Shown here in pieces: positions 48,562 to 62,264 of a stretch of DNA of 64,000 bases (positions are counted from its first letter, which is position 1; each line of letters begins with the position of its first letter). The notes below the pieces were generated by a model, which saw only the letters and a program-made list of their open reading frames with translations, was not told the DNA's origin and did not search any database. The translations under genes and the position numbers were made by a program. Source of the stretch: Candidatus Aegiribacteria sp. MLS_C (GTDB lineage Bacteria; Fermentibacterota; Fermentibacteria; Fermentibacterales; JCC-6); NCBI GenBank assembly GCA_002030045.1, contig LQBI01000030.1, positions 62,001-126,000 of the forward strand. Reading direction: 5' to 3'.

Positions 48562-48845
48562 GGGACACTCCGGGATGAAAGGTGCTATACGAACGGACAA
48601 TCAGACGGCATGATACTGGCTGGTGAAAGATGTGTCAATTCCGCCCGAGCATGTGCTCCATGCATGGTCCGGCAATCCGCCCGGTCCCCGTGCAGGGCAC
48701 TTCAAGGTCGGCATTTCGCCGAGGAACGGCACCGCTTCCATGAGCCGTCCTGTTGTAATGCCCGGGTACTGGCAGTGGTTTCTTGACCCCGCAGGGAACG
48801 AACCTTATTATGTTACACGGGAATACTTATGAATTGGAATCCGAC

Positions 48846-49622
48846 ATGTTTTCAAGGGTATCGATAACCGCAGGGATCCTTGTATGCTGCCCTGCATTGC
48901 TTGCGCAGAGCCGGGCCGCTTCCGATGATGTCATAGTGTTCTCCTGCCATCAGACCTGGGACTCAAGGATATACGTGCTGGATATGTGCGGCCGGGTCCT
49001 CGACTGGCACCAGTACGAATTCTACAGGCTGTGCGACCTGGAACTCGTGGACGGAGAGGTCCATGCGGTAGACGCATTCGCTCCCCGTTCCTTCAGGGTG
49101 GATCTTCAGACCTGGGAACTCGAGACCATCATCGATGACTGGTCCCTCTACTACTTCTACGACCTGGCCTATGACGGCCGGTTCCTGTACGTGACGGAGT
49201 GGGACATGAACCGCTATCTGCCTGACGGCATCAAGGACTCTTCAGCCGATTTCGACCATGATGTCCTTGGTTCCTGCTTCAGCGGAGGCCTGCTCTGGAC
49301 GCTCAACGAGGATGGCCTGATTCGCTGCTGGAACATTCAGGATTGGCCCGAGATCGCGGAGGTATCCTCAGCATCCTTCTCACCCCCGGGTGATTCCTGC
49401 AGGGGTCTCTGGCACGACGGAGAGTACTTCTGGTCGGCGGAAGCCCTTGATTCAGGGCCGGGTATGATCTACAGGTTCGACGGATCCGGAACCGTCGTGG
49501 ACCAGCTGGCAGCGCCGGCCTTCACCGGCTGGTCGGCATGCGTGTACTACGGATATCCTTCCGGTCTGGATCAGAATACATGGGCCAGTCTCAAGGCACT
49601 GATGAACCAGGGTAACGATTGA
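48846..49622 (+). CDS. Secreted propeller-like protein with C-terminal TWASLKA tag
   Basis: A 258-residue exported protein: signal peptide MFSRVSITAGILVCCPALLAQSRA, then propeller-like strands (IYVLDMCGRVLDWHQYEFYRLCDLELVDGEVHAVDAF; WTLNEDGLIRCWNIQ; MIYRFDGSGTVVDQLAAP). No family name can be given. The last 15 residues, QNTWASLKALMNQGND with its preceding Asp, match the tails of two other secreted proteins in this window (58300 and 59610 regions). The ATG at 48846 is chosen because it begins the signal peptide. Confidence 0.6.
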   Translation: MFSRVSITAGILVCCPALLAQSRAASDDVIVFSCHQTWDSRIYVLDMCGRVLDWHQYEFYRLCDLELVDGEVHAVDAFAPRSFRVDLQTWELETIIDDWSLYYFYDLAYDGRFLYVTEWDMNRYLPDGIKDSSADFDHDVLGSCFSGGLLWTLNEDGLIRCWNIQDWPEIAEVSSASFSPPGDSCRGLWHDGEYFWSAEALDSGPGMIYRFDGSGTVVDQLAAPAFTGWSACVYYGYPSGLDQNTWASLKALMNQGND

Positions 49623-50135
49623 TGACACCAGTGCGTGCTCCAGCGCAAGCAACGGGAGCGCAATGACCGTCTTCCAGCGGAGGTCGCCCTGGCCGGCATC
49701 AGTTCAGCGTACCGAAGAGCCGACATAGGCAGGCATAGACATTTTGGTCCGGGTACTCTCCGCACGGATTCCGTTTTTTCGGCCGGCCTGCTCGAAACGG
49801 CCACCGTTGATAAGATGGAGTGATCTCTTAACTGGTCTGGGTCGATCCTTGTTCAGCCCGATTACATTATATGATGGACCATAAACCCTCTACGGTCTTC
49901 CTCAGACGGATGATCGATCCGGAACAGGGAAGGATGGCTGGTTGCGCGAAGTCGGCGGAAGCCGGCACCTTCGGTGATTCCTCTCCATGATCCTGCGCGG
50001 AGCAGGTAATCCCGGGGGACATCGACTGCGATCCCATCTTTCTTCGGAACCTTCTGAACGGCCATATCCACGCACTATGTGAGGAAGTGGCCGACACAGC
50101 GGAATGCCGGCCGCTCTTTCCGAAAGATCAAATGG
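49623..50135. other. Intergenic stretch, no gene seen
   Basis: 513 bases between convergent genes. Short minus-strand frames near 49862-50097 are open but match nothing. No repeat, hairpin with U-tract or tRNA was found. Confidence 0.4.
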
Positions 50136-50450
50136 TCATTCCTCCCTTGTCAGGGGAGCGACACCCGTTCTTCCTTCGGCCACGAGTTCGACCGTGTTGT
50201 CCTCGCGAAGGTGGATCCTGCCCAGCGTGAGTTCCGTGATCTCCACCCGGGGGAAGTTATGGACGATGATGGATATCTGGTCCTGAGTGAGTTCGATGGT
50301 GGTCAACTCGTCCCTGGGGCAGTCATGGATGATGATAGCGACCTGTTCGTCGGTCAGTTCGATGACCAGGGGATCGTTCCTCTCAGCGGCCAGGGCGGTT
50401 CCGGTCAGGATGAGGAGCATCACGACCACCGGTGCTACTACAGTTCTCAT
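50136..50450 (-). CDS. Small secreted protein with internal repeat
   Basis: A 104-residue exported protein: signal peptide MRTVVAPVVVMLLILTGTALA, then two related units of about 23 residues (VIELTDEQVAIIIHDCPRDELT and TIELTQDQISIIVHNFPRVEIT) and a third, partial one (ELTLGRIHLREDNTVEL). The unit is E-L-T-x-[DE]-Q-[VI]-[AS]-I-I-[IV]-H-[DN]-x-P-R. No family is recognised. GGGAGAC precedes the ATG; the frame upstream to 50537 is not hydrophobic or conserved-looking. Confidence 0.6.
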   Translation of the reverse strand: MRTVVAPVVVMLLILTGTALAAERNDPLVIELTDEQVAIIIHDCPRDELTTIELTQDQISIIVHNFPRVEITELTLGRIHLREDNTVELVAEGRTGVAPLTREE

Positions 50451-50729
50451 TCTGTCTCCCTTCCATTGACAGAAGGTTCGGTAATGCACGTGCCATAACT
50501 GCCCGTATATTACCATTCCTGGTAGATTTAACAGCAAACAGGTTAATACCGGTCAATGGCAGTTCGCCACTCTGATTTGCATCCCGACCGTCCGCCGCGA
50601 CCGGTCCTGGATACCTCAAAGCCGGTCTTTTCCGGTTCTGGTGAGGTGGCGAGGATTCAAGTATTTATCTTGCTGTTGCACACTGCGGGAATTCCCGCTG
50701 TCATCGGCAATGCCGGGGGAGGGTAGCCA

Positions 50730-53700
50730 ATGAAGGGTCTGATCCCGTCCTTCATAAGCGATCGGTGCTCTCAGGACCGTCGGGACGGTATTCTTCAGGC
50801 TACATGCATGTTCATCGACATATGCGGGTTCAGTGCGATGACCCAGGCGCTCATGAACAACGGCAAGGAGGGAGCAGAAGTCCTCGCCGAAGTCATCAAC
50901 AGTGTCTTCACACCGGCCATAGGCACCATCTACAGACACGGAGGGTTTGTATCCTCCTTCGCAGGAGACGCCTTCACCAGCATCTTTCCCTCTGACTCGG
51001 CCAGGCTCCTCGATTCTCTGTCCGCTGCCATCCGACTTCGGGACCGGTTGCGCAAGGAAGGCGTCCAGATCACGAAGTTCGGGTCCTTCGATCTGTCTGT
51101 GAGGATCAGCCTTTCCTTCGGTGATGTCTCATGGGGCATAATCCCCCATGAAGCACAGAGCACCTTCCATTTCGGAGGGAACGCCATCGTGAAATGCACC
51201 GAATACGCCATGATGCATGCGGCTACCGGAGAGGTCGTCCTGGACGGGAGTGTCGTTTCGGAGCTTGAGGGAACCAGTGGAGTAACACTGGAGAGTACGT
51301 CCGAAGGTTACCGGCTGCTGAGTTCGATTGACTCCCCTGCACCGGAGTGGATGCTTCCCGAACCCATCGATTCGCACCAGGAGGAGTTCGTACCCCCTGA
51401 AGTCCTGGAGCTGAACCGCAGGGGGGAGTTCAGGGACATAGTTTCCTGCTACATGACCTTCGAGACGGCAGGTGATCTCTCATCAGGCATAGCCGGTATC
51501 ATCTCCCTTGCCCGCCGTTTCGGAGGTTATTTCAACAAGATGGACTGCAGGGACGGAGGAGGGATGATCCTGGTCCTCTTCGGTGCCCCCGTGAATCCCG
51601 GCAACCTCTACAGGAGAGCGCTCGACTTCGCAATCGCCGCTGGAGGGGTTTCCGAGCTGCGGCTGCGCACGGGACTGGCATGCGGTACAGTTTTCGCGGG
51701 TTTCGTGGGCAGTGGGCTCAGGAGCGAATACACCGCGCTGGGCAGCGTCGTGAACCTTTCGGCAAGGTTCGCGCAGAGCGGGGGCGAACCCTTCATATAC
51801 CTGGACGAGACCATCTACAGGCAATGCCGTTCACTTTACGACATGGTGCCGCTGGAACCCGCGGAGTTCAGGGGCTTCGACGGGAGGGTACCGGTATTCC
51901 AGCTGTCCGGGAAGAGGCTCGAGATCCCCTCTTCAGCCTTCGGAGGAAGAATGGTGGGAAGGGAAAGGGAGATGGTCCAGCTGGAGGACCTTATGCGGCC
52001 GGTAGGCGCAGGGGTGTTCGGAGGTATAGTCTACCTCTTCGGCAACCCGGGAGTGGGCAAGTCGCGGCTCGTGCACGAAATCGCCCGTCGCAACCGGTTC
52101 AGGACACTGCTCCTGCAGACAGACGGCATACTCAGAAAACCCCTGAACCCCTTCACCGGGTTCTTCAGACAGTACTTCGATCAGGAGGAAGAGCTATCGC
52201 TCGAGGAGAGGAAGTCGAACTTCGAGTCCAGATACAGGGAACTAACAGGCATGATGCAGAGATTCACGGATACCGCCAGACGACCGGAAACGACAGGGGA
52301 TCTTACCCGTGTGAAGTCTTTGATAGGGTCTGTCATCGGATTATCCTGGGAAGATTCGGTGTTCGAATCGGTGGACCCGGATGACAGGAGAGTAATCATC
52401 AGGCTGGCGGTAAGTGAGTTCTTCAGGGCACTAAGCCTGACAGAGGCTGTGGTCCTGGTCATCGAGGACATCCAATGGCTGGACGATGAGTCGAAGGGTG
52501 TTTTCGAGCTGATGACGCGAAGCGCGGAGGGTTACCCGCTCATGATCCTTGCCACCGGAAGATTCGACGATGACGGTTCCAGCCCGCTCCTAAGAAGTGA
52601 CCCCGACGTGCCCAGTCATTCGATCACTCTGCGGGACCTCTCCGAAGAACAGACAAAACTGCTTGTCGAAGACCTTCTCGGCGGCAGGACCGATGATTGT
52701 CTCGCCGCTTACATACAGGAAAGGACCGAGGGGAACCCTTTCTACACGGAACAGTTCTGCCTCTACCTCAGGGACCGCGGGATCATATCCACCGGGGACG
52801 GCGTCTACCGACTGGAGAGGGAACCCGCCGACATACCCACTGATATCAACATGGTCCTGGTCTCCAGGATAGACCGTCTTTCGGAGAAGCTGAAGGAAAC
52901 AGTCCAGATAGCGTCCGTCCTGGGGCGCGAGTTCGAGATACAGGCCCTCGGGGCAATGATCCGCAACCTCGGCGCAGCCGGCGGGAGCGACGCTCCTTCG
53001 TCGGACAGCGGAGTGCTGCATCTGGTAAACAGCATCGAGGAGGAGGGTATATGGTCGGCAATGACGGAGTTCATCTGCATGTTCAACCATTCTCTCCTGA
53101 GGGATGCCGCATACGAGATGCAGTTGAGGACCCGTCTTAGGGACCTTCACGGAATGGCCGGAGACGTGGTCCGTGACCTTCATCCTGATGACATGACGCT
53201 GTACGCGGACATCGCCCATCACTACGAACTTGCCGAGGAATGGGAAAAGGCAATTGAGTACAGCGGGAAGGCGGCGGACTACTTCCACAGGTCCATCAGG
53301 TACGATGAGGCCCTGGCCTACCGGAGGAAATCCCTTTCCGTTTGTCTGCGGACACTTGGCGGGACACATTCGAAGACGGCTCGCTGCTATTCGGACATGG
53401 GAGTCGTTCTCTCGGACATGGGTGATTTCGGCGAGGCGCTGTCCTGTCATCGGAAGGCTCTTTCCATCAGGCTGGGACTATTCGGCGAGGAACACCCGGA
53501 CACCGCCAGGTCGTACAGCTTCATAGGCGAGGTTTGCTCAGAGAGGGGAGAGTACGATCCTGCACTGGAGAACCTCGAGAGAGCCATCGCAGTAAGAAGG
53601 TCTGTGCTGGGCGAGATGCATCCCGATACCGCGACTTCCTACAACGATATCGGAGCCGTATACCTGGACACGAACAGGTTCGACAAGGCACTGGAATACT

Positions 53701-54476
53701 ATCGGAAGGCGCTTTCGATCGAGAGGCAGACCCTTGGCGAGATGCATCCCTCTACCGCATGCTCCTACAACAATATAGGCCACGTGCACTCGGTCATGGG
53801 TGACTACGATAAGGCTCTGGAGTATTACGAGAAGGCCCTGGCCATACAGAAGGAGACCCTCAGCGAGAAACATCCCCACACCGCTACTCTCTACAGCAAT
53901 ATCGCCAGTCTGTACTGGAAGAAGAACGACTTCGGAACGGCCCTTGAGTACAGCGAGAAGGCCCATTTGATGCAGAAGGAACTCCTTGGCGAGAAGCATC
54001 CCTCCACAGCCAGATCCTACAATAACATAGGGGTCATACATGCCCGCCAGGGACACTTCGATGAAGCCCTGGCGTACTACGAGAGGGCACTCGCCATAAG
54101 GATGGAACTGCTCGGCGAGAGGCATCCTGATACCATCAATTCCTACAACAATATAGGAATATGCCTCCATCAGAACGGAAATAACGGCAGAGCACTGAGG
54201 TTCAGCGAAAAGGCCCTTGCCCTGGGAAGGGAAGTATTCGGGGAGAACCACCCCAACACCGCCCTGGCGATGGGGAGCATTGCCCGCATCTGCTCTTCGA
54301 GGGGGGATTACGGCAGGGCGGAAAGCCTTTTCTTGCAGGCTTATTCGATCCTGTCCGGTTCACTCGGGAATAGCCATCCCTATTCGACGAGGACACTGGC
54401 CAGCATGGCCGACATGTACGAAACCATGGGCAGGCCCGCCGAGGCGGAGAAGGTCAGGGCACGGCTGGGTCGATAG
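50730..54476 (+). CDS. Adenylate cyclase-like/AAA ATPase/TPR signalling protein
   Basis: A 1248-residue cytosolic protein. Residues about 20-200 are a class III cyclase domain (metal Asp30 in MFIDICGFSAM, Asp80 in SSFAGDAFTSIF). A second, cyclase-like domain (about 230-400) has lost the first metal Asp (CYMTFETAGDL) and looks regulatory. Residues about 410-720 are an AAA/STAND-type ATPase with Walker A GNPGVGKS and Walker B VVLVIEDIQWLDDES. From about 840, nine or so 42-residue kinesin-light-chain-type TPRs follow (HPDTATSYNDIGAVYLDTN...KALEYYRKALSI). This is the architecture of large bacterial cyclase regulators. GGAGGG precedes the start. Confidence 0.88.
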   Translation: MKGLIPSFISDRCSQDRRDGILQATCMFIDICGFSAMTQALMNNGKEGAEVLAEVINSVFTPAIGTIYRHGGFVSSFAGDAFTSIFPSDSARLLDSLSAAIRLRDRLRKEGVQITKFGSFDLSVRISLSFGDVSWGIIPHEAQSTFHFGGNAIVKCTEYAMMHAATGEVVLDGSVVSELEGTSGVTLESTSEGYRLLSSIDSPAPEWMLPEPIDSHQEEFVPPEVLELNRRGEFRDIVSCYMTFETAGDLSSGIAGIISLARRFGGYFNKMDCRDGGGMILVLFGAPVNPGNLYRRALDFAIAAGGVSELRLRTGLACGTVFAGFVGSGLRSEYTALGSVVNLSARFAQSGGEPFIYLDETIYRQCRSLYDMVPLEPAEFRGFDGRVPVFQLSGKRLEIPSSAFGGRMVGREREMVQLEDLMRPVGAGVFGGIVYLFGNPGVGKSRLVHEIARRNRFRTLLLQTDGILRKPLNPFTGFFRQYFDQEEELSLEERKSNFESRYRELTGMMQRFTDTARRPETTGDLTRVKSLIGSVIGLSWEDSVFESVDPDDRRVIIRLAVSEFFRALSLTEAVVLVIEDIQWLDDESKGVFELMTRSAEGYPLMILATGRFDDDGSSPLLRSDPDVPSHSITLRDLSEEQTKLLVEDLLGGRTDDCLAAYIQERTEGNPFYTEQFCLYLRDRGIISTGDGVYRLEREPADIPTDINMVLVSRIDRLSEKLKETVQIASVLGREFEIQALGAMIRNLGAAGGSDAPSSDSGVLHLVNSIEEEGIWSAMTEFICMFNHSLLRDAAYEMQLRTRLRDLHGMAGDVVRDLHPDDMTLYADIAHHYELAEEWEKAIEYSGKAADYFHRSIRYDEALAYRRKSLSVCLRTLGGTHSKTARCYSDMGVVLSDMGDFGEALSCHRKALSIRLGLFGEEHPDTARSYSFIGEVCSERGEYDPALENLERAIAVRRSVLGEMHPDTATSYNDIGAVYLDTNRFDKALEYYRKALSIERQTLGEMHPSTACSYNNIGHVHSVMGDYDKALEYYEKALAIQKETLSEKHPHTATLYSNIASLYWKKNDFGTALEYSEKAHLMQKELLGEKHPSTARSYNNIGVIHARQGHFDEALAYYERALAIRMELLGERHPDTINSYNNIGICLHQNGNNGRALRFSEKALALGREVFGENHPNTALAMGSIARICSSRGDYGRAESLFLQAYSILSGSLGNSHPYSTRTLASMADMYETMGRPAEAEKVRARLGR

Positions 54477-54494
54477 ACCGGAAGGAGTCCCCGC

Positions 54495-55379
54495 ATGATG
54501 TTGCTTCTTACCCTTATAGCCTTTCCGCTTCCCGTAGAGGGCACGGAAGGCTTCCATGCCATCGAACTGGTTCCCTTCGGTGAGGGAGTCGCCGCCACGG
54601 GAGAGGCGGGAAGCAGGCTGCTGGTCCTGGGCGGCGGACTGGAACCTCTCCTGGACATAACCGCCGGGGACCTGGGAATAGACTGGTTCCGATCCATTGC
54701 GGCCGACCCGCTGCTGGGAGACCTCTGGGTGCTGGCTGAAGACACGGGGCCCTTCCTGTTCCGCTTCGATCGTGGAACACTCACTGATGCGGACGGATTC
54801 CGTTTCGACGACATCAGCAATCCCGTCGTGGACGGGTCGGGCCGGCTGTGGTACTCCTCCGGAGGCAGGCTCTTCAGGGACCTCGCCGATCTCGGAATCG
54901 TCCTGGACGCAGGTTGGCTGGCGGTAAGCGCCGACGGTGAGACCGTGGCATGGGTGGACGGCGAGGACAGGGTCTGGCGCACGCGGGTATCATCCGACCT
55001 CGAACCGGAAATGGTCGAGGAAAGGCGCTCCATCACCCCGTTCTACCTTCCGACAAGCCCTGTCCTCGTCGTACCCCTTCTCGGCGGCGGTTTTTCAATG
55101 CATCTGCCTGAAGGTTCCGTCATCGAGGTGGAGGAGGGACTGCAGCCCTCCTGGTGCCCGTATCCCGAAGGCGTCGTCTACTGCGTGTCAGAGGATGACG
55201 GTCACCGCATCATCGGGTCAGACCTGTACCTGGCCACGCTGCAGGGGGAGATCGTAAGGCTGACGGATACACCGGACTGCCTGGAGACCAACCCTTCGGT
55301 CTTCGATGAGGGAATCATCGCCGTGGATGCATCCAATGGATACCTGGTAGTGGTCCCCGACGACTGCCTGTTCCGGTAA
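54495..55379 (+). CDS. Hypothetical secreted propeller-like protein
   Basis: A 294-residue protein with a short signal-like head (MMLLLTLIAFPLPVEG) and repeated propeller-type strands: SRLLVLGGGLEPLL, WVLAEDTGPFLFRFD, RLWYSSGGRLFRDL, GETVAWVDGEDRVWRTRV and LYLATLQGEIVRLTDTP. I recognise no named family. It starts 18 bases after the cyclase/TPR gene stop, behind AAGGAG, so it is probably co-transcribed with it; a role as a periplasmic partner is speculation. Confidence 0.62.
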   Translation: MMLLLTLIAFPLPVEGTEGFHAIELVPFGEGVAATGEAGSRLLVLGGGLEPLLDITAGDLGIDWFRSIAADPLLGDLWVLAEDTGPFLFRFDRGTLTDADGFRFDDISNPVVDGSGRLWYSSGGRLFRDLADLGIVLDAGWLAVSADGETVAWVDGEDRVWRTRVSSDLEPEMVEERRSITPFYLPTSPVLVVPLLGGGFSMHLPEGSVIEVEEGLQPSWCPYPEGVVYCVSEDDGHRIIGSDLYLATLQGEIVRLTDTPDCLETNPSVFDEGIIAVDASNGYLVVVPDDCLFR

Positions 55380-55465
55380 GTCTTGTCGGGAAGGCGTCCG
55401 CCGCCTTCATGAGACCGATACCGGGGAGGAGCCGGCGGTATTCCGAAGGGACCCTTTCCGTGCCG

Positions 55466-55488
55466 TCCGCTCCGCGTCATGGAGCGGA
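55466..55488. terminator. Stem-loop in the gap before the M1 peptidase gene
   Basis: TCCGCTCC (55466-55473) and GGAGCGGA (55481-55488) pair perfectly over 8 bases with a 7-base loop. It lies in the 213-base gap between two forward genes. Without a U-tract it could be an attenuator, terminator or mRNA-stability hairpin. Confidence 0.35.
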
Positions 55489-55592
55489 GACCTGTCCGGC
55501 ACCGATCGGAAAGGGATACTCGATGGTCCCTCGACTCTTTATCTTCTTCGGCAGGGACTGGCTCTTGACCTGCCGGACGAGGAGGAGGAGCG

Positions 55593-57488
55593 ATGCTGCT
55601 GATCATTATGCTGACGCTGATCTCGGGACCCCATCCGCTTTTGCAGGAACAGGCACTCCGCAGGCCCCTTCCCTGCTGGACGATCGACGGCTCGGACCAT
55701 CCCGAGAACCCGGTGGACATCCTGCACTACGACCTGGCAATAGAGGTGTTCCGAGACATACAGGAGATATACGGTATAACCGGAATAACAATGACCTCCG
55801 CCGGGACGACGGTGTCCGACATAAGGCTCGACCTCAGGCAGCTCACCGTTGATTCGGTGTGGGACGCCACCGGGGACCTGGCCTTCCACCAGCAGGACGA
55901 TTCGCTGTTCATCACGCTCTCGTCACCGCTGGCCCCCGCCGATACGGCGGAACTCTTCGTGGCGTACGGCGGATTCCCCTACCACGAATCCTGGGGGGGT
56001 TTCTGGTTCCATCCCTACATCACCTACCACATCGGGGTGGGGATCTATACCCCGGGACAGTGCATGGGCAAGTGCATGTTCCCGTGCTGGGACTTCCAGA
56101 ACGACAAGGCCACCTACGATTTCCACATAACCTGCCCCGATACGCTCTACGCCGTTGCCAACGGCGATTCCGCCGGGGTCGATTACGAGGCTGGGAAGGC
56201 CACCTTCCACTGGACCTTCGATCAGCCCCTCCCCACCTACCTGGTCACAATGGCTGTGGGGGAGTACGCGGTGCTCCACGACTCAACGGACTCCCGAATC
56301 TACTACTACGTCTACGAGTGGGAGATCGACGACGCGCTGGGCAGCTTCACCAATGTAGACCTGATGCTGGCCAACCTTGAGTCACTTTACGGTCCCTATC
56401 CGTGGGACTGCAGGTTCAGCCTCGTTGAGACTCCCAACGGCGACATGGAGCATACATCCGCCATAGCCCACTGGGCCAACGCGGTCAACGGCAACAACTA
56501 CTGGGACTGGCTCATCGCCCATGAGATGACCCATCACTGGTGGGGCTGCTGCGTTTCCCACGCGGACTGGCAGAGCATCTGGCTCAAGGAGTCCTTCGCC
56601 ACCTACGGCGAGGCCCTCTGGATGGAGACCTACGGCGAGGACGAATACACGGAGTACATGGTACAGAGCATAATGATACCGTACCTTAACAGCGGCGAGC
56701 TCTTTCCCGTAGCCTATCCCGAGACTCCCGCCCAGATATTCAGCTACACCACCTACGAGAAGGCGGCATCGGTGCTGCACATGCTCAGGTATGTACTGGG
56801 CGACCAGGATTTCTTCGATTCGATGAACTGGCTGTTCCAGCAGCACATGTACGGTCTCATAACGAACCAGGACTTCCATGACGCAGTGGAGTACGTCACC
56901 GGAGAAGACATTGACTGGTTCATGGACACCTGGATATACGACTGGGGCTATCCCGTGTACGACATCACCAGCAGCTGGACCGGGACCCTCGACGCATGGG
57001 AGCTCACCGTAGAACTCAGCCAGGTCCAGACGACCGGACCCGTGTTCGAGATGCCGCTGGAGTTCCTGGTCCAGGGCGTGTCTCAGGATACCCTTGTGAC
57101 CATGTGGAACGATTCCGCATACCAGGCGCAGTCGTACCAGGTATCCTTCGAGCCGGTGGATGTGGTTTTCGACCCCTACAGCCACATACTCTGCGGTAAC
57201 GTCCTGACCGGGATAGAGGGGCCGTCTTCGCCTCCCGGCGGTCTGGGTACCGTCCATCTCGGTCCCAATCCCTGCAGGGGTTCCGCGACGGTCATATGGC
57301 CGGGTACCGAGAACTGGGACCTGACCGTCACCGTCTACGACATGAGCGGGAGGACCTGCCTCAGGGGAAGGCTTGTTCCCGGCGAAAGGACCCTTGACGT
57401 TTCCTCGCTGCCCCCGGCAACCTACCTTCTGGACATAAGGGGAGAGGGGAGCACCAGGCAGTCGGCCAGGCTCGTGGTACTCGAGTAG
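55593..57488 (+). CDS. Secreted M1 family metallopeptidase with T9SS sorting domain
   Basis: A 631-residue zinc aminopeptidase-like enzyme. An N-terminal hydrophobic head (MLLIIMLTLISG) precedes the beta domain. The exopeptidase GAMEN-like loop is FSLVETPNGDMEHTSAIAH. The zinc site is HEMTHHWWG (His310, Glu311, His314) with the third ligand Glu333 in WLKESFATYGE, at the correct 18-residue spacing. The last 90 residues (VHLGPNPCRGSATVIW, LTVTVYDMSGRTCLRG, YLLDIRGEGSTRQSARLVVLE) form a type IX secretion sorting domain, so it likely acts at the surface or outside the cell. GAGGAGGAGG precedes the ATG. Confidence 0.9.
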   Translation: MLLIIMLTLISGPHPLLQEQALRRPLPCWTIDGSDHPENPVDILHYDLAIEVFRDIQEIYGITGITMTSAGTTVSDIRLDLRQLTVDSVWDATGDLAFHQQDDSLFITLSSPLAPADTAELFVAYGGFPYHESWGGFWFHPYITYHIGVGIYTPGQCMGKCMFPCWDFQNDKATYDFHITCPDTLYAVANGDSAGVDYEAGKATFHWTFDQPLPTYLVTMAVGEYAVLHDSTDSRIYYYVYEWEIDDALGSFTNVDLMLANLESLYGPYPWDCRFSLVETPNGDMEHTSAIAHWANAVNGNNYWDWLIAHEMTHHWWGCCVSHADWQSIWLKESFATYGEALWMETYGEDEYTEYMVQSIMIPYLNSGELFPVAYPETPAQIFSYTTYEKAASVLHMLRYVLGDQDFFDSMNWLFQQHMYGLITNQDFHDAVEYVTGEDIDWFMDTWIYDWGYPVYDITSSWTGTLDAWELTVELSQVQTTGPVFEMPLEFLVQGVSQDTLVTMWNDSAYQAQSYQVSFEPVDVVFDPYSHILCGNVLTGIEGPSSPPGGLGTVHLGPNPCRGSATVIWPGTENWDLTVTVYDMSGRTCLRGRLVPGERTLDVSSLPPATYLLDIRGEGSTRQSARLVVLE

Positions 57489-57501
57489 GAAGGAGTATTC
57501 C

Positions 57502-58329
57502 ATGTACCGTGCAGTATTGGTCCCGGCATGCCTGGCCTTCGGGGGCGGGGAAGCGATGATCCCGCCGGGCGCCTCAGCCGGACAGTCATTCACGCTCACG
57601 GTCGAGAACGAATGGTACCTCGGCTGGGCTTCGGGGATCGCGCTCTCGGGTATTACCCATGACGAGGGGGAGGATCGAATCTGGATCGTCAGTTCGACCA
57701 CGGACAAGCTGTACCGTGTATCACCGTCAGATCCGCTGGTGGTGGAGGAGACCATTGACGTTCCCGGCGACTGGGGTTCGGGTATAGCCGCCAGGGGGTA
57801 TGGTGCGGAAAGGTACATCTACCTAGTGGACGGCAACATACAAGGCAGCTACTATGCATATCACGATGGCTCATGGATCTTCTACTCCGGCAATCCTGCG
57901 TCCGAGTACGGTACTGGCCTCGATGTGGAGGATAACGGAATGCTGTGGGAGTCTGTGCACGATTACGGTCTGATGAGGTTCTACCCCGGAAGCAGCACCT
58001 TTACCGGTTTCGAATACCATACTCCCGGAGCGACTGGCAGCGGAGTGACACTCTTCCCATGGGAGGACGGGACGGGTGTCGCTGTTTCATTGCAGAATTA
58101 CAACAAGCTGGAGTTCTTCGTCTTCGAGCCCCCCGACTCCCTTGTCTTCCTCGGCGATGCGGATATTCCGGTGAGCGTGGATTTCTGTTCGGGCCTGGAA
58201 TACGTATCCAGCAGGGCAACCTTCTACCTGACCGTCAGGATCTCCGGCCTGATGCACATGCTGGAAGTCGGATGTGACGTTCTCGAACTCAGGCAGGATA
58301 CCTGGGGGAGCATCAAGACGGCCATGTGA
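57502..58329 (+). CDS. Secreted propeller-like protein with C-terminal TWGSIKT tag
   Basis: A 275-residue exported protein. A short hydrophobic head (MYRAVLVPACLAFGG) is followed by propeller-like strands (GITHDEGEDRIWIVSSTTDKLYRVSPSDPLVVEETIDVPGD; GLDVEDNGMLWESVHDYGLMRFYPGS). The family is unknown. It ends LRQDTWGSIKTAM, matching the tails of the proteins at 48846 and 59607. It starts 14 bases after the M1 peptidase stop behind GGAAGGAG, so the two are probably one transcript. Confidence 0.65.
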   Translation: MYRAVLVPACLAFGGGEAMIPPGASAGQSFTLTVENEWYLGWASGIALSGITHDEGEDRIWIVSSTTDKLYRVSPSDPLVVEETIDVPGDWGSGIAARGYGAERYIYLVDGNIQGSYYAYHDGSWIFYSGNPASEYGTGLDVEDNGMLWESVHDYGLMRFYPGSSTFTGFEYHTPGATGSGVTLFPWEDGTGVAVSLQNYNKLEFFVFEPPDSLVFLGDADIPVSVDFCSGLEYVSSRATFYLTVRISGLMHMLEVGCDVLELRQDTWGSIKTAM

Positions 58330-58409
58330 TTTCCGGGCTGCGGAAGCGGCCGGCACCCGGTGATGCACCTGTGCCGTCGATCGATTATGATACCCTCTTC
58401 AAACTGGTA

Positions 58410-58441
58410 TTGTTTACCCGAAATACTCCAATGGTTGACAG
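58410..58441 (+). promoter_or_regulatory. Possible BirA-type biotin operator upstream of bioY
   Basis: TTGTTTACC (58410-58418) and GGTTGACAG (58433-58441), separated by 14 bases, resemble the BirA half sites TTGTAAACC and GGTTTACAA (7 of 9 matches each). Known operators have 15-16 base spacers. The right half abuts the AGGAGGT ribosome site of bioY, a sensible place for biotin-dependent repression. Pattern match only. Confidence 0.4.
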
Positions 58442-58449
58442 GAGGTACC

Positions 58450-59088
58450 ATGCAGTTAGCGGCTGCCGTTGCAGAGTACGACAGGTTCAGGGCAGGCATC
58501 TTCCGCAGGCGTGACGGCCTCGCCTTCGAGGGGAAGCTGGCACTGGCCTTTTCCATGGCTGTTCTTACTGGATTGCTTGCTCAGGTCAGGGTGTACCTTC
58601 CCTGGACTCCCGTTCCTCTGACGGGGCAGGTGCTTGCCGTCCTGCTCTCCGGGGTCGTCCTCGGTGGAAGGTTCGGCGCGCTGAGCCAGGTCCTGTACAT
58701 TTCCCTTGGAGTCGCGGGCGTTCCCTGGTTCAACGGTTCGTCAGCCGGTCCGGCTGTTCTGTTCGGCCCTACCGGAGGCTATCTGCTGGGCTTCATCCCT
58801 GCTGCCTACGCCATGGGGCGAACAGTGGACAGCTGCCCTCCGGCGAGGTCGTTTCCCGGAAATGTACCTTCAATGGCGGTCGTTACACTGTTATGCATAT
58901 ACCTGCCCGGACTCGCCGGGCTTGCTTTCTGGCACCATGCCGCGACCGGCGGCTTTCCCGACCCTCTCAGGCTACTTGTCATCGGTGCCCTTCCCTTCAT
59001 GCCCGGAGAATCACTGAAGATCCTTCTTGCCGGACTGGGCGGTCGTATTCTCGGCCCGCCGTCAGCGTTTCCGCAGTCGGGAAAGTAG
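58450..59088 (+). CDS. bioY: Biotin transporter BioY
   Basis: A 212-residue S-component of the biotin ECF transporter, with six predicted helices. Signatures are VYLPWTPVPLTGQVLAVLLSGVVLGGRFGALSQVLYISLGVAGVPWFNG and GPTGGYLLGFIPAAYAMG, and the C-terminal PFMPGESLKILLAGLGGRIL. No EcfA or EcfT gene is near, so it either works alone or shares an energising module elsewhere. The ATG at 58450 follows AGGAGGT. The organism therefore probably scavenges biotin. Confidence 0.92.
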   Translation: MQLAAAVAEYDRFRAGIFRRRDGLAFEGKLALAFSMAVLTGLLAQVRVYLPWTPVPLTGQVLAVLLSGVVLGGRFGALSQVLYISLGVAGVPWFNGSSAGPAVLFGPTGGYLLGFIPAAYAMGRTVDSCPPARSFPGNVPSMAVVTLLCIYLPGLAGLAFWHHAATGGFPDPLRLLVIGALPFMPGESLKILLAGLGGRILGPPSAFPQSGK

Positions 59089-59228
59089 TCCTTGATCCCA
59101 TAGTGATCCGGCCCCGGAACATGACTTGCGATCCTTCCGAAGGACGCGACGGTCCGGGTCCGATTGGTCCCGGGCCAGTGGAGCTTATACTGAAGGATAA
59201 ACGGTCCGGACTGCCAGGGAGGGAGGAC

Positions 59229-59553
59229 TTGAATGAAAAATACCGTAGAGCGCCCAGGTGCGGGGACAGGAAGCTAATGACCATCACCGGGGCGGTGAAT
59301 TCAAGCAGTTACGATCCACAGTCGATATACCTCCTCTCCCTCGGGGGGACCGCCCTGGCCGGCGCGGTGCTTGGCCTTGAGCCGGGGGCCCCTGGAGGCT
59401 TTCTTCTGCAGGGGTTGCGGTTACCTCGAACTGTACGTGATGGAGCCGGGGTCGGTGGTTTCCGACGGTGAGACGATCAAGGGTCAGGACATCCGCTGGA
59501 GTCGACAGGCCTTGACATGTTCCTTGAATACCGTGAAGGGGTGCAGGTCATGA
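59229..59553 (+). pseudogene. Decayed small zinc-ribbon protein
   Basis: A TTG at 59229 behind GGGAGGGAGG begins NEKYRRAPRCGDRKLMTITGAVNSSSYDPQSIYLLSLGGT. The match then shifts one frame near 59370 and reads PLEAFFCRGCGYLELYVMEPGSVV. Joined, these give the pattern of small zinc-ribbon proteins (CPxCG ... CxxCGYxELYV), except that the first Cys is lost (APRCG). Loss of one knuckle Cys plus a frameshift argues for decay. The region 59089-59228 before it holds nothing else clear. Confidence 0.45.
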
Positions 59554-59579
59554 AGGGGTGCAGGTCATGCACCCCTTCG
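59536..59579. terminator. 17-base tandem repeat and strong hairpin
   Basis: A 17-base unit starting GAAGGGGTGCAGG occurs twice in tandem (59536-59552, 59553-59569). The second copy forms a perfect 11-base stem, GAAGGGGTGCA (59553-59563) with TGCACCCCTTC (59569-59579), around a 5-base loop. Sitting between convergent genes it is a good bidirectional terminator, and the extra copy offers an alternative pairing. Confidence 0.6.
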
Positions 59580-59606
59580 CGAAGTACGCTCTGTGATCCG
59601 AAGACC

Positions 59607-60200
59607 TTACTGGATCGTGGCCTTGATCGATCCCCAGGTGGTCTGCTCGAGGGCCAGCTCATCGAAGATGAAGTTTGGCCCGAAACGGCCGTAGGAGGTG
59701 GAGGTGAGGCCCGGGAACACGAATCCCAGCTCTCCGGAGGTGGGGTAGACACTTGCCACCCAGGTTATTTCCGGCGCGGTGGACATAGAGCTGGCGCCGG
59801 AGATGTAACTGTCATCGTCACCGGAGAGGTAAAGGGCGCCTATGGTGTAGGTCTCGCCTGTATCAAGGATTATCGGAGTGATGCTCTCGTAGATCCAGTC
59901 GCCAACGACGGTACCGGTGTTGTCCACTATCACGGAACCGAGCAGGTTCTGCGAACCGTCCCAGATGCCAACCTCGTGGGGATTGTCGATGCCTCCGGCT
60001 CCGGACGAATCCATGTTCCAGATGCCCAGGTCCGTCACCTGCATCTGCTCGCTAACTGTGAACTGGTAACCCACCACGTCCCCGGTGGCGCTGCCGTAAT
60101 AGGAGTCGTACTGCGAACCTCCGGTGAATCCCGTGATCGCCTGTCCGAAGGCGGCGGGGACTATCACCAGAGCGATCAGAGCATAGATGCCTGTTCTCAT
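59607..60200 (-). CDS. Secreted DUF4082-like beta-sandwich protein with TWGSIKA tag
   Basis: A 197-residue exported protein: signal peptide MRTGIYALIALVIVPAAFGQA. The body resembles DUF4082-type beta sandwiches: VVGYQFTVSEQMQVTDLGIWNM, HEVGIWDGSQNLLGSVIV and ITPIILDTGETYTIGALYLSGDDDSYI. Such domains occur in extracellular proteins of unknown function. It ends LALEQTTWGSIKATIQ, the tail motif shared with two other secreted proteins here. GGAGGGTGACA precedes the ATG at 60200; the frame upstream to 60254 is basic and unsupported. Confidence 0.72.
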   Translation of the reverse strand: MRTGIYALIALVIVPAAFGQAITGFTGGSQYDSYYGSATGDVVGYQFTVSEQMQVTDLGIWNMDSSGAGGIDNPHEVGIWDGSQNLLGSVIVDNTGTVVGDWIYESITPIILDTGETYTIGALYLSGDDDSYISGASSMSTAPEITWVASVYPTSGELGFVFPGLTSTSYGRFGPNFIFDELALEQTTWGSIKATIQ

Positions 60201-60301
60201 TGTCACCCTCCTTGCGAGTGTTTTCTGTTTTCTGCACGAACGAGACACGAACATAATTGAAGAGCACCGGCAGCCGCAACTGATTCAGCTGGTGATCGAG
60301 G

Positions 60302-60988
60302 TCAGCGTTCACCGCGGTTCCTCCAGATCCCCCATACGATGCGCCATTTGATGTACGGAAGTTTCTCCGGCAGCTCCGCGAGGTTCATCGCGAGGAAGTC
60401 CCTGTCGGGGACGGAGGGAGACGACAGGACCTCTCCGCCGTGGAGCTTCGTGAACCCCGATGCCGAGAAGTAAGCGTCCAGCCTGCCGCCGTGTCCTGTG
60501 TACAGGCCGGATTCCCGGAGCCCCTGCAGGAGCCGTACACTGAAACCATCGTCCGGAGTCGCTTCCAGGGCATCGTAGTCGTACTCCCCCATCACTGCGT
60601 AGAACCCTCCCGGGGTCAGCACCCGGCCTACCCTGGCAAGCCATTCCACCGGATCGGGGACGATTGAGAAGAAGAAGGAGCTGACGTACATATCGGCCTT
60701 AACGGGACCGGCAATTGCGTCACCCTGAATGAATCCCTCCCCATCCGGCAGGACGTCCGGATCGATGTCCATCCCGGTGTACCGGGCCCCGGTCAGGTCC
60801 CGGAGTTCGGTCGCCAGCAGACCCGTTCCGCAGCCGGGCTCGAAGACGGTGCCGGTACTCCTGAGGGGCAGCAGGGAGTAGACATTCCTGCGCATCTGCC
60901 TGATTTCTTCGAACTGCCTGCGGTAGATCCCGGCCAGGACCCGCCTGTCACATGGAGTCCCTGCAGGGTACCCCGTTCTGCTTCTCAA
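60302..60988 (-). CDS. Class I SAM-dependent methyltransferase
   Basis: About 228 residues with a methyltransferase core: motif I VFEPGCGTGLLATEL, then YTGMDIDPDVL, the acidic ADMYVSSFFFSIVPDPVEWLARVGRVLTPGGFYAVMGEY, as in type 11/25 methyltransferases. The start is uncertain; a TTG at 60988 behind GGAGGAGG overlaps the upstream radical SAM gene by 41 bases, and other in-frame starts reach 61066. Overlap implies translational coupling, so it may modify the same target as the radical SAM enzyme (inference). No metal or Cys-rich elements are present. Confidence 0.8.
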   Translation of the reverse strand: MRSRTGYPAGTPCDRRVLAGIYRRQFEEIRQMRRNVYSLLPLRSTGTVFEPGCGTGLLATELRDLTGARYTGMDIDPDVLPDGEGFIQGDAIAGPVKADMYVSSFFFSIVPDPVEWLARVGRVLTPGGFYAVMGEYDYDALEATPDDGFSVRLLQGLRESGLYTGHGGRLDAYFSASGFTKLHGGEVLSSPSVPDRDFLAMNLAELPEKLPYIKWRIVWGIWRNRGER

Positions 60989-62264
60989 GAGGGCATCCTC
61001 CTCCGCAGAGGTCGAAATGGACGCAATCGCGGCATTCATCATCGACCCATTCCCTGTCCCTGGCATACCTCAGGAGCGGGCCGTTCCATATGGAATCCCA
61101 GTCGTCCTCCAGGAAGTTGCCGGCGGATTCGTACCAGCTCTGGCATGGAAGGACCTCTCCGTCAGGCTCGATGCACAGGTTGTACTCCCCCGCGGTGCAT
61201 CGCCTGGGGCCGAGGGAGAACTCCAGGGGATTGAAGGAGCAGTAGCGAGTGGGTGAGTACCAGACGAACCGCATACCCAGCCGGTCCAGGGTTTCGGTCA
61301 GCCGGAGCATGGTGATCTCCAGGTCCTCGGGCGTAACTGACCAGTCGCCTTCCAGGGCCCTTCCGGAGTGGATCACCGCGTTGGCGGCAACTGCACCCAG
61401 TCCCAGTCCGTGGACGAACTCCACCGTGTCCGGCAGACCTTCCCGGTTGACTTTGGTGACGGTGGTGTTGGTGATGGTGTGAATGCCTGCGTCAACGCAG
61501 TTGCGTATCGCCTTCACCGTGCTCCGGAAGCTGTCGGATCCCGTCATGCTGTTGTGGATATCCTCATTCGAGGACTCCAGGGTTATCTGGACATGGTCGA
61601 GACCCGACAGCACCAGCTCGTTCAGATAACCTGCATCAGCCAGTCTCACTCCGTTGGTCAGAAGTCCCGTGACCATGCCGAGCGACTCGGCGAACCCCAC
61701 CAGTTCCGGAAGGTCCTTCCTCAGAGTGGCCTCACCTCCGGTGAAGATCGCATGGGGTATGCCAAGGTCCCATATGCGCTTCAGGACCTCCTTCCATCCG
61801 TCCGTACCCAGTTCGGTCTTCTCCCTGGACTGGTTGTAGCAGTGGCCGCAGTTGAGGTTGCACCGGTATGTGAGAGCCAGGTCCATCCTGTAGGGAACGG
61901 ACACCTTTGTCCTGAAAGGCTCCCTCACGTCAATGTTCTCGAAGGATACCGGTTCCTTTTCGCCGGCAAGGATCAGTTCGGCAAGAACTTTCCCGAATTT
62001 CATCAGATCGGAGGAGGCCCTTTTTCTTCCCACCCTGTAGGTCCTGACCATGAGTCCAACTGCTTCACGGTCAGAATAGCCCGATAGGATCATCCAGGCC
62101 ATGTCCACAGCGACACTGTTGAGATGTACTATCCTGGAGGCATCCACGGTGAGCATTCCGGTCCCGGACCCGTCCGACCTGAGATGGAGCCTGTGTCCTT
62201 CCCTCACGAAATGGTGTATCCCCTTCGGAGATATACCCATAGTTAGCTTTGCTTCAGGACCCAT
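60948..62264 (-). CDS. RRE-radical SAM/SPASM maturase
   Basis: A 438-residue enzyme. Residues 1-100 are a PqqD-like peptide-recognition domain (HLRSDGSGTGMLTVDASRIVHLNSVAVDMAWMILSGYSDREAV). The radical SAM core has Cys135-x3-Cys139-x2-Cys142 (LTYRCNLNCGHCYN) and AIFTGGEATLRKDLPELV. The C-terminal SPASM region carries auxiliary-cluster cysteines: RRCTAGEYNLCIEPDGEVLPCQSW and ECRDCVHFDLCGGGCPLEKQNGVPC. This layout is that of RiPP maturases such as PqqE-type and thioether-forming enzymes. It starts 3 bases after the Cys-Ala-tailed membrane protein gene, whose tail is the obvious substrate candidate. Confidence 0.9.
   Translation of the reverse strand: MGPEAKLTMGISPKGIHHFVREGHRLHLRSDGSGTGMLTVDASRIVHLNSVAVDMAWMILSGYSDREAVGLMVRTYRVGRKRASSDLMKFGKVLAELILAGEKEPVSFENIDVREPFRTKVSVPYRMDLALTYRCNLNCGHCYNQSREKTELGTDGWKEVLKRIWDLGIPHAIFTGGEATLRKDLPELVGFAESLGMVTGLLTNGVRLADAGYLNELVLSGLDHVQITLESSNEDIHNSMTGSDSFRSTVKAIRNCVDAGIHTITNTTVTKVNREGLPDTVEFVHGLGLGAVAANAVIHSGRALEGDWSVTPEDLEITMLRLTETLDRLGMRFVWYSPTRYCSFNPLEFSLGPRRCTAGEYNLCIEPDGEVLPCQSWYESAGNFLEDDWDSIWNGPLLRYARDREWVDDECRDCVHFDLCGGGCPLEKQNGVPCRDSM

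Follow-up and report, generated by a model that had tools for sequence, protein, structure and literature searches.

Several kinds of C-terminal signal direct exported bacterial proteins beyond the inner membrane, and among the closest described counterparts of the element reported here are those of the type IX secretion system (T9SS). The type A C-terminal domain (CTD) of that system, Por_Secre_tail (TIGR04183/PF18962), is a beta-sandwich of 60-100 residues with motifs A-E, carried by Sec-exported proteins, and the type B and type C CTDs (TIGR04131, NF033708) are domains of ~55-100 residues through which other proteins address that translocon; type B has a PorP/SprF partner of its own (PMC10202324). 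Shorter CTDs of 43-55 residues, which consist of three beta-strands and retain motifs B, D and E, are known from Prevotella intermedia (PMC11969387). The T9SS has been described as restricted to Bacteroidota (PMC4793230, PMC10202324), and for Poribacteria Por tails are known but the Por machinery is said to be lacking (PMC3909097). PEP-CTERM, LPXTG and related sortase/exosortase signals are short and conserved, occur at the very end of many exported proteins that are otherwise unrelated, and depend on a transmembrane helix and a basic tail that follow the motif. Here we describe a tag of ~13 residues, with the core TWGxIKxxF-stop, that was found at the ends of three exported proteins in a 64,000-nucleotide stretch of the Candidatus Aegiribacteria sp. 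MLS_C genome (contig LQBI01000030.1, positions 62,001 to 126,000; hereafter the window).

An earlier note on this window had pointed out three almost identical C-terminal motifs, and all were present as described: the proteins encoded at 48783..49622 (+), 57502..58329 (+) and 59607..60254 (-) have the C-termini DQNTWASLKALMNQGND, RQDTWGSIKTAM and EQTTWGSIKATIQ, respectively. The first of these exported proteins, which probably starts at 48846 (MFSRVSITAGILVCCPALLAQSRA...), had no match in Pfam or NCBIfam and bears the tag TWASLKALMNQGND at 49578..49619 (+; core TWASLK, 49578..49595). The second is predicted to be a beta-propeller (AlphaFold2 pTM 0.78; best PDB match by Foldseek, glutaminyl cyclotransferase 2iwa) and ends with TWGSIKTAM (58300..58326, +), and the third, which shows weak similarity to DUF4082 (E 5.6e-5, below the gathering score), carries TWGSIKATIQ (59610..59639, -; core TWGSIK, 59622..59639). 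These window tags are slightly atypical, as the majority of tags terminate exactly in KxxF and the stop.

The feature goes well beyond these three genes. The whole source genome (Fermentibacterota, 2.98 Mb) was searched with the pattern ACN-TGG-GSN-NNN-NTN-AAR, equivalent to T-W-[GA]-x-Phi-K, and with the reversed pattern as a control, which gave 35 matches versus 2 (1 + 1) for the control. Twenty-nine of the 35 (24 of the first 30 and all 5 of the rest) end an export-type open reading frame (ORF), 9-15 residues ahead of the stop, and the remaining six were internal or out of frame. In a 464-kb sample picked irrespective of the tag (the window and 20 further stretches, with 333 called genes), the motif W[GA]x[ILVMF]K was found in the last 20 residues of four genes and once elsewhere in 120,144 residues, a C-terminal excess of 4 versus 0.044 expected (Poisson P ~1.6e-7); as three of the four are the window genes from which the finding arose, the sample depends on it in part, which the genome-wide and phylum-wide counts do not. 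A signal peptide was predicted for all four. Within the same genome a strict signal-peptide heuristic was passed by 18 of 25 tagged ORFs versus 96 of 329 background genes (Fisher P = 2.7e-5), and among all tagged ORFs collected, 132 of 164 passed it for an N-terminal Sec signal peptide; the heuristic is home-made, insists on a basic n-region and overlooks several evident signal peptides. Gene calls were likewise home-made, and most of the genomes are metagenome-assembled genomes (MAGs). The whole-genome motif check and signal-peptide comparison proposed with the original observation thus found the tag to be enriched at the C-termini of exported proteins.

The overall consensus is [LV]-[ED]-x-[ST]-T-W-[GA]-x-I-K-x-x-F-stop, with the form K-L-x-T-T-W-G-x-[IL]-K-x-x-[FL] in Poribacteria, and the conserved positions are T(-1), W, [GA], I, K and the C-terminal F. 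By group, the profile reads L(-5) E/D(-4) x S/E(-2) T(-1) W G/A x I K x x F-stop in Fermentibacterota, K(-5) L(-4) x T T W G x I/L K x x F/L in Poribacteria, and V(-5) E(-4) x T/S T W G x I K x x F in Coatesbacteria and Gemmatimonadota. The Gln that precedes the motif in the window, which the earlier note had remarked on, is a coincidence of those three tags: position -3 in the phylum is R in 27%, Q in 24% and N in 18%. Trp and Lys were found in 100% of an alignment of 74 tagged proteins, but most of these loci had been selected with both residues fixed, and Lys was therefore tested on its own; in a search that left its codon open, all 150 of the phylum matches listed still had AAA or AAG, and none had Arg. 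A C-terminal F stands directly before the stop in ~85% of Fermentibacterota tags, and some tags have residues beyond it (L018, L030). The 164 tags collected are written by 142 different 18-mers with mixed synonymous codons, which indicates that selection acts on the protein level and led us to reject a DNA-level repeat or recombination site. In Rhodothermia the last 11 residues, RRTWGSIKAMF, are identical in three otherwise strongly diverged proteins.

Structure predictions for two unrelated folds place the tag outside the domain. In the AlphaFold2 model of the window protein encoded at 57502, the tag forms a separate helix (residues 265-274, pLDDT ~55) next to the propeller, and in the model of one Poribacteria protein a beta-rich domain is followed by a linker and then by a helix over the tag (residues 207-221). 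A helical wheel puts W, I, K and F on one face, within 100 degrees. An outer-membrane beta-signal, suggested only by the terminal F, was set aside, as the spacing does not match and the proteins are not barrels. Two variants of the tag were also observed. A UBP1 protein ending NATWGAIKSLF (L056:4327-4680, +) has a second, copy-like motif, CDTWGLIKCCF, directly after its signal peptide in a Cys-rich stretch. In L028, L057, L067 and L109 (also L208) a tagged protein and the lamin-tail-domain protein that comes after it form a conserved pair; the latter has the C-terminus NSWAFIKAFVQ, an S-W variant.

The proteins that carry the tag are otherwise unrelated, as the earlier note had held for its three. 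The 164 collected form 51 clusters without detectable homology between them, all of which are represented in the 74-protein alignment. They are small (median 243 aa), and their domains include LamG lectin, lamin-tail domain (LTD), DOMON, carbohydrate-binding module (CBM), DNRLRE and beta-propeller folds; profile scans found no Pfam or NCBIfam domain common to them. With 51 clusters, no common profile and a tag outside the fold in the AlphaFold2 models, a shared homologous C-terminal domain was rejected. The tag is a removable module, as a homologue of the tagged DOMON protein L005 (19700..20266, -; E 1e-35, 44% identity) lacks it; this is one of two DOMON homologues in the genome that end before the tag. 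It can also be exchanged for another signal. The beta-propeller protein L101 ends TWGSIKSTF, while a homologue from another species, L221, which is 49% identical to it over 221 residues, has a type A Por tail instead (TIGR04183 E 8e-4, below the curated cut-off, and PorZ-tail E 1.6e-6), and the pair L077/L139 is a weaker second case (E 7e-5; TIGR04183 E 2.8e-6). None of 74 tagged proteins carried both tag and Por tail. In this the tag behaves much like the 'choice of anchor' domains, by analogy. The two propeller genes (L221:9767-10786, +; L101:4074-4853, +) also have a TGA in frame at matching positions (...DC*GSDLD...), with a hairpin within ~15 bases 3' and GGU in or near its loop; the TGA probably encodes selenocysteine, which would give these exported beta-propellers a C-U motif.

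Contrary to the suggestion of the earlier note, the tag is not confined to one lineage. A stricter tag-plus-stop pattern was matched in all 42 Fermentibacterota genomes searched, spanning three families and nine genera, with ~526 matches versus 5 for the control. In a scan of 84,980 species, the matches listed came from Fermentibacteria (including Aegiribacteria and Sabulitectum) and from MAGs of Poribacteria, Coatesbacteria, Gemmatimonadota, Latescibacteria, Eisenbacteria, UBP1 and Rhodothermia, and nearly all of those listed were in-frame C-termini of exported ORFs; the clear exception was a 12-residue ORF in a Bdellovibrionales MAG, a chance match. Strict matches numbered 2-11 per genome in Poribacteria, 1-4 in Gemmatimonadota and Latescibacteria and exactly 1 in Rhodothermia, and one Coatesbacteria MAG had 13; the distribution is patchy within Gemmatimonadota and Rhodothermota. 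No Pfam or NCBIfam model describes the tag, and a literature search found neither the motif strings nor a description of such a tag for these phyla.

Set against the described signals, the tag has several features in common with T9SS type A: it is a C-terminal signal on Sec-exported proteins of FCB-type (Fibrobacteres-Chlorobi-Bacteroidetes) bacteria, it occurs in the same genomes, it replaces a Por tail on a homologous propeller, and SprA- and PorV-type proteins are present. An M1 peptidase with a Por_Secre_tail lies in the same neighbourhood of the window (55593..57488, +; TIGR04183, E 7.8e-8). Unlike the type A sandwich, however, the tag is ~13 residues long and predicted to be a short helix with W and K invariant, and none of 74 tagged proteins matched TIGR04183, TIGR04131 or NF033708 at E up to 0.1, in agreement with the distinction already drawn from the Por/T9SS domains of the window. 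Like the short CTDs of P. intermedia it is a shortened signal found alongside long ones, but it lacks their length, their strands and motifs B, D and E. It shares the brevity and position of sortase and exosortase signals, but, as had been noted from the window, no transmembrane helix or basic tail follows the motif, only 3-10 residues, usually xxF and the stop. Because it fails the defining features of each, we have not assigned the tag to any of these classes, although by analogy it may work like a T9SS signal.

We searched tag-bearing genomes for SprA_N (with the PF14349 profile and with the L207 protein as query), for the PorV family (NF033709) and for Por tails. PF14349 was found in 31 of 35 genomes and in 0 of 14 control genomes. 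The L207 query, a 1,870-residue protein of the source genome encoded between pilB and lptF, had a homologue in 41 of 42 Fermentibacterota genomes, the exception being G013, and a SprA_N-type homologue (by PF14349 or orthology) was found in 20 of 20 other tag-bearing genomes tested. All of the Poribacteria, Coatesbacteria, Eisenbacteria, Gemmatimonadota, Latescibacteria and UBP1 genomes tested with the L207 query matched it; some Poribacteria were searched with PF14349 alone, where scores were weak (E down to 5e-4), and Rhodothermia had full-score SprA_N. No SprA homologue was found in the Bdellovibrionales genome with the 12-residue chance match. The homologues are large (~1,870-2,300 aa), and include giants outside Bacteroidota at L207:8307-13919, L209:6459-12845, L210:10533-17060 and L216:7135-13983, which adjoin lptF/lptG and PilB/PilT/PilC-like genes in Fermentibacterota and LptF/LptG-like genes in Gemmatimonadota and Latescibacteria. 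PorV-family proteins were found in 32 of 32 genomes tested (31 over the cut-off), and the tag-free G062 also had weak NF033709 matches. Por tails numbered 30 to >100 per genome in the genomes tested, the Bdellovibrionales genome excepted. The SprA-like gene of three Poribacteria has a tagged or tag-like gene as its nearest neighbour on the upstream side.

That the tag is a sorting signal is well supported by inference, mainly because it is swapped with a Por tail, as choice-of-anchor domains are. The earlier note had left open sorting, processing or anchoring; the proposal survived both of the outcomes named as able to refute it (absence of enrichment at exported C-termini, and descent from one homologous domain), and the Por-tail swap now favours sorting. 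A SprA/PorV-type route is the likeliest reader, through a link that is correlative. In such a scheme, the tagged small proteins would cross the inner membrane by Sec, and in the periplasm the tag, joined by a linker to the folded domain and lying beyond it, would adopt a short helix. The helix face with the conserved W, I, K and F would then dock into a receptor for export or attachment at the outer membrane, most likely the SprA-type translocon with PorV-family partners that these phyla encode, a route that would also serve, or have served, the Por_Secre_tail proteins of the same genomes. We infer a helix in vivo, recognition by SprA/PorV and a surface destination; the tag would then be a second T9SS-like signal, of minimal size, in bacteria other than Bacteroidota. 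Taken as a whole, a short helical C-terminal sorting signal, likely read by SprA/PorV in a T9SS-like manner, is the best explanation we have, and we consider its chances about even.

Several observations weigh against it. Helix confidence was low in both modelled tails (pLDDT 34-57), as would be expected for a free tail. The adjacency to SprA was seen in three Poribacteria only, probably one lineage, and the co-occurrence with SprA and PorV is confounded by the common ancestry of FCB-type phyla. We know of no such tag in most SprA-bearing Bacteroidota. Lastly, G013, the only Fermentibacterota genome without SprA, keeps one strict tag and its tag-like neighbour. That single tag compares with 3-31 in relatives (next lowest genomes 3-4), and the coincidence is no more than suggestive of a link to SprA; as proof of SprA dependence it is weakened by the absence of LptF, LpxC and two PilB genes, which lie with SprA in one chromosomal region in relatives, so that a single deletion, or a single contig missing from the assembly, accounts for the whole pattern. 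Thirty-three Por tails are present in G013, as are PorV proteins. It is a 98% complete 1.9-Mb genome, in which absence of the block could reflect loss of lipopolysaccharide or a missing contig. The conserved pair with the S-W variant described above persists in G013, and the next gene there encodes a secreted protein, possibly of metallo-beta-lactamase type from a reading by eye.

Among other explanations, it is possible, if unlikely, that the tag is a SprA-independent anchor, its helix binding a dedicated surface or periplasmic receptor in a groove and so holding the protein on the envelope. PDZ and TPR proteins bind C-termini in this manner, and the frequent F right before the stop, the one-sided helical face and the prevalence of binding or lectin-like domains among tagged proteins are all consistent with docking. 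No candidate receptor was found, however, the swap with the Por tail points to a Por/SprA route, and some tags continue beyond the F. We consider it improbable that the invariant Lys is a site of covalent attachment or cross-linking, joined to Trp, glycan or peptidoglycan by a transferase or radical-SAM enzyme. The absence of Arg at that position and the fixed W-x-x-x-K spacing would suit such chemistry, but Lys shares its helical face with W, I and F and may just as well make a binding contact, and the sole local enzyme candidate fared poorly. This radical SAM/SPASM protein (60948..62264, -) was tried as a tag maturase because it is close to a tagged gene and W-x-x-x-K is reminiscent of streptide-type cross-links, and it was rejected from its orthologue distribution, as no orthologue was found in the tag-rich genomes G007, G008, G010, G011, G014 and G015 or in any Poribacteria tested; other maturases are possible. 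No recurrent neighbour fit to be a processing enzyme was found in the tagged-gene clusters L218-L221. The search for a co-distributed protease or transferase that the earlier note had advised thus yielded no dedicated enzyme of either kind, but did find the co-distributed SprA-type translocon.

More improbable still is a site of periplasmic proteolysis or quality control, either a degron or a C-terminal peptide removed by a Prc/CtpA-type protease. PDZ-proteases recognise a C-terminal position with a hydrophobic last residue, and the tag has both, but a degron on ~30 exported proteins per genome makes little sense, and alternation with a Por tail is not what one would expect of a processing signal. 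One might cite the beta-rich character of several tagged proteins and the paralogy within some clusters (up to 13 members) in favour of chance or of a common homologous domain at the C-terminus, but this reading is refuted by the 35 matches against 2 controls, the P value of ~1.6e-7, the 51 clusters and the position of the tag outside the fold.

Two neighbouring loci in the window were also recorded. At 60302..62264 (-) the radical SAM/SPASM protein, which is PqqE/NirJ/AhbD-like, adjoins a methyltransferase; its orthologues are patchy in the phylum and are also found in one Coatesbacteria and one UBP1 genome. A 1,248-residue cyclase/ATPase/TPR protein (50730..54476, +) is similar to the kinase/cyclase fusion of thiazole/oxazole-modified microcin (TOMM) systems and to FxSxx-COOH TPR proteins.

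C-terminal sorting signals provide a handle for predicting surface proteomes, and the presence of a second, much simpler tag together with a SprA-type translocon in the same genomes makes surface-protein export in these bacteria testable. The statements that the T9SS is restricted to Bacteroidota, or that Poribacteria lack its machinery, predate or do not cover these SprA-like proteins (PMC3909097, PMC4793230, PMC10202324). It is plausible, though we lean somewhat against it, that the 13-residue helical tag with its invariant Trp-Lys pair represents a new class of outer-membrane secretion signal, read by SprA/PorV in at least seven phyla outside the classical Bacteroidota, within a T9SS-like system that would use two interchangeable C-terminal signals and possibly the Lys covalently. 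The tag offers a 13-residue, genetically portable signal and a naming rule for many exported proteins now annotated as 'hypothetical'.

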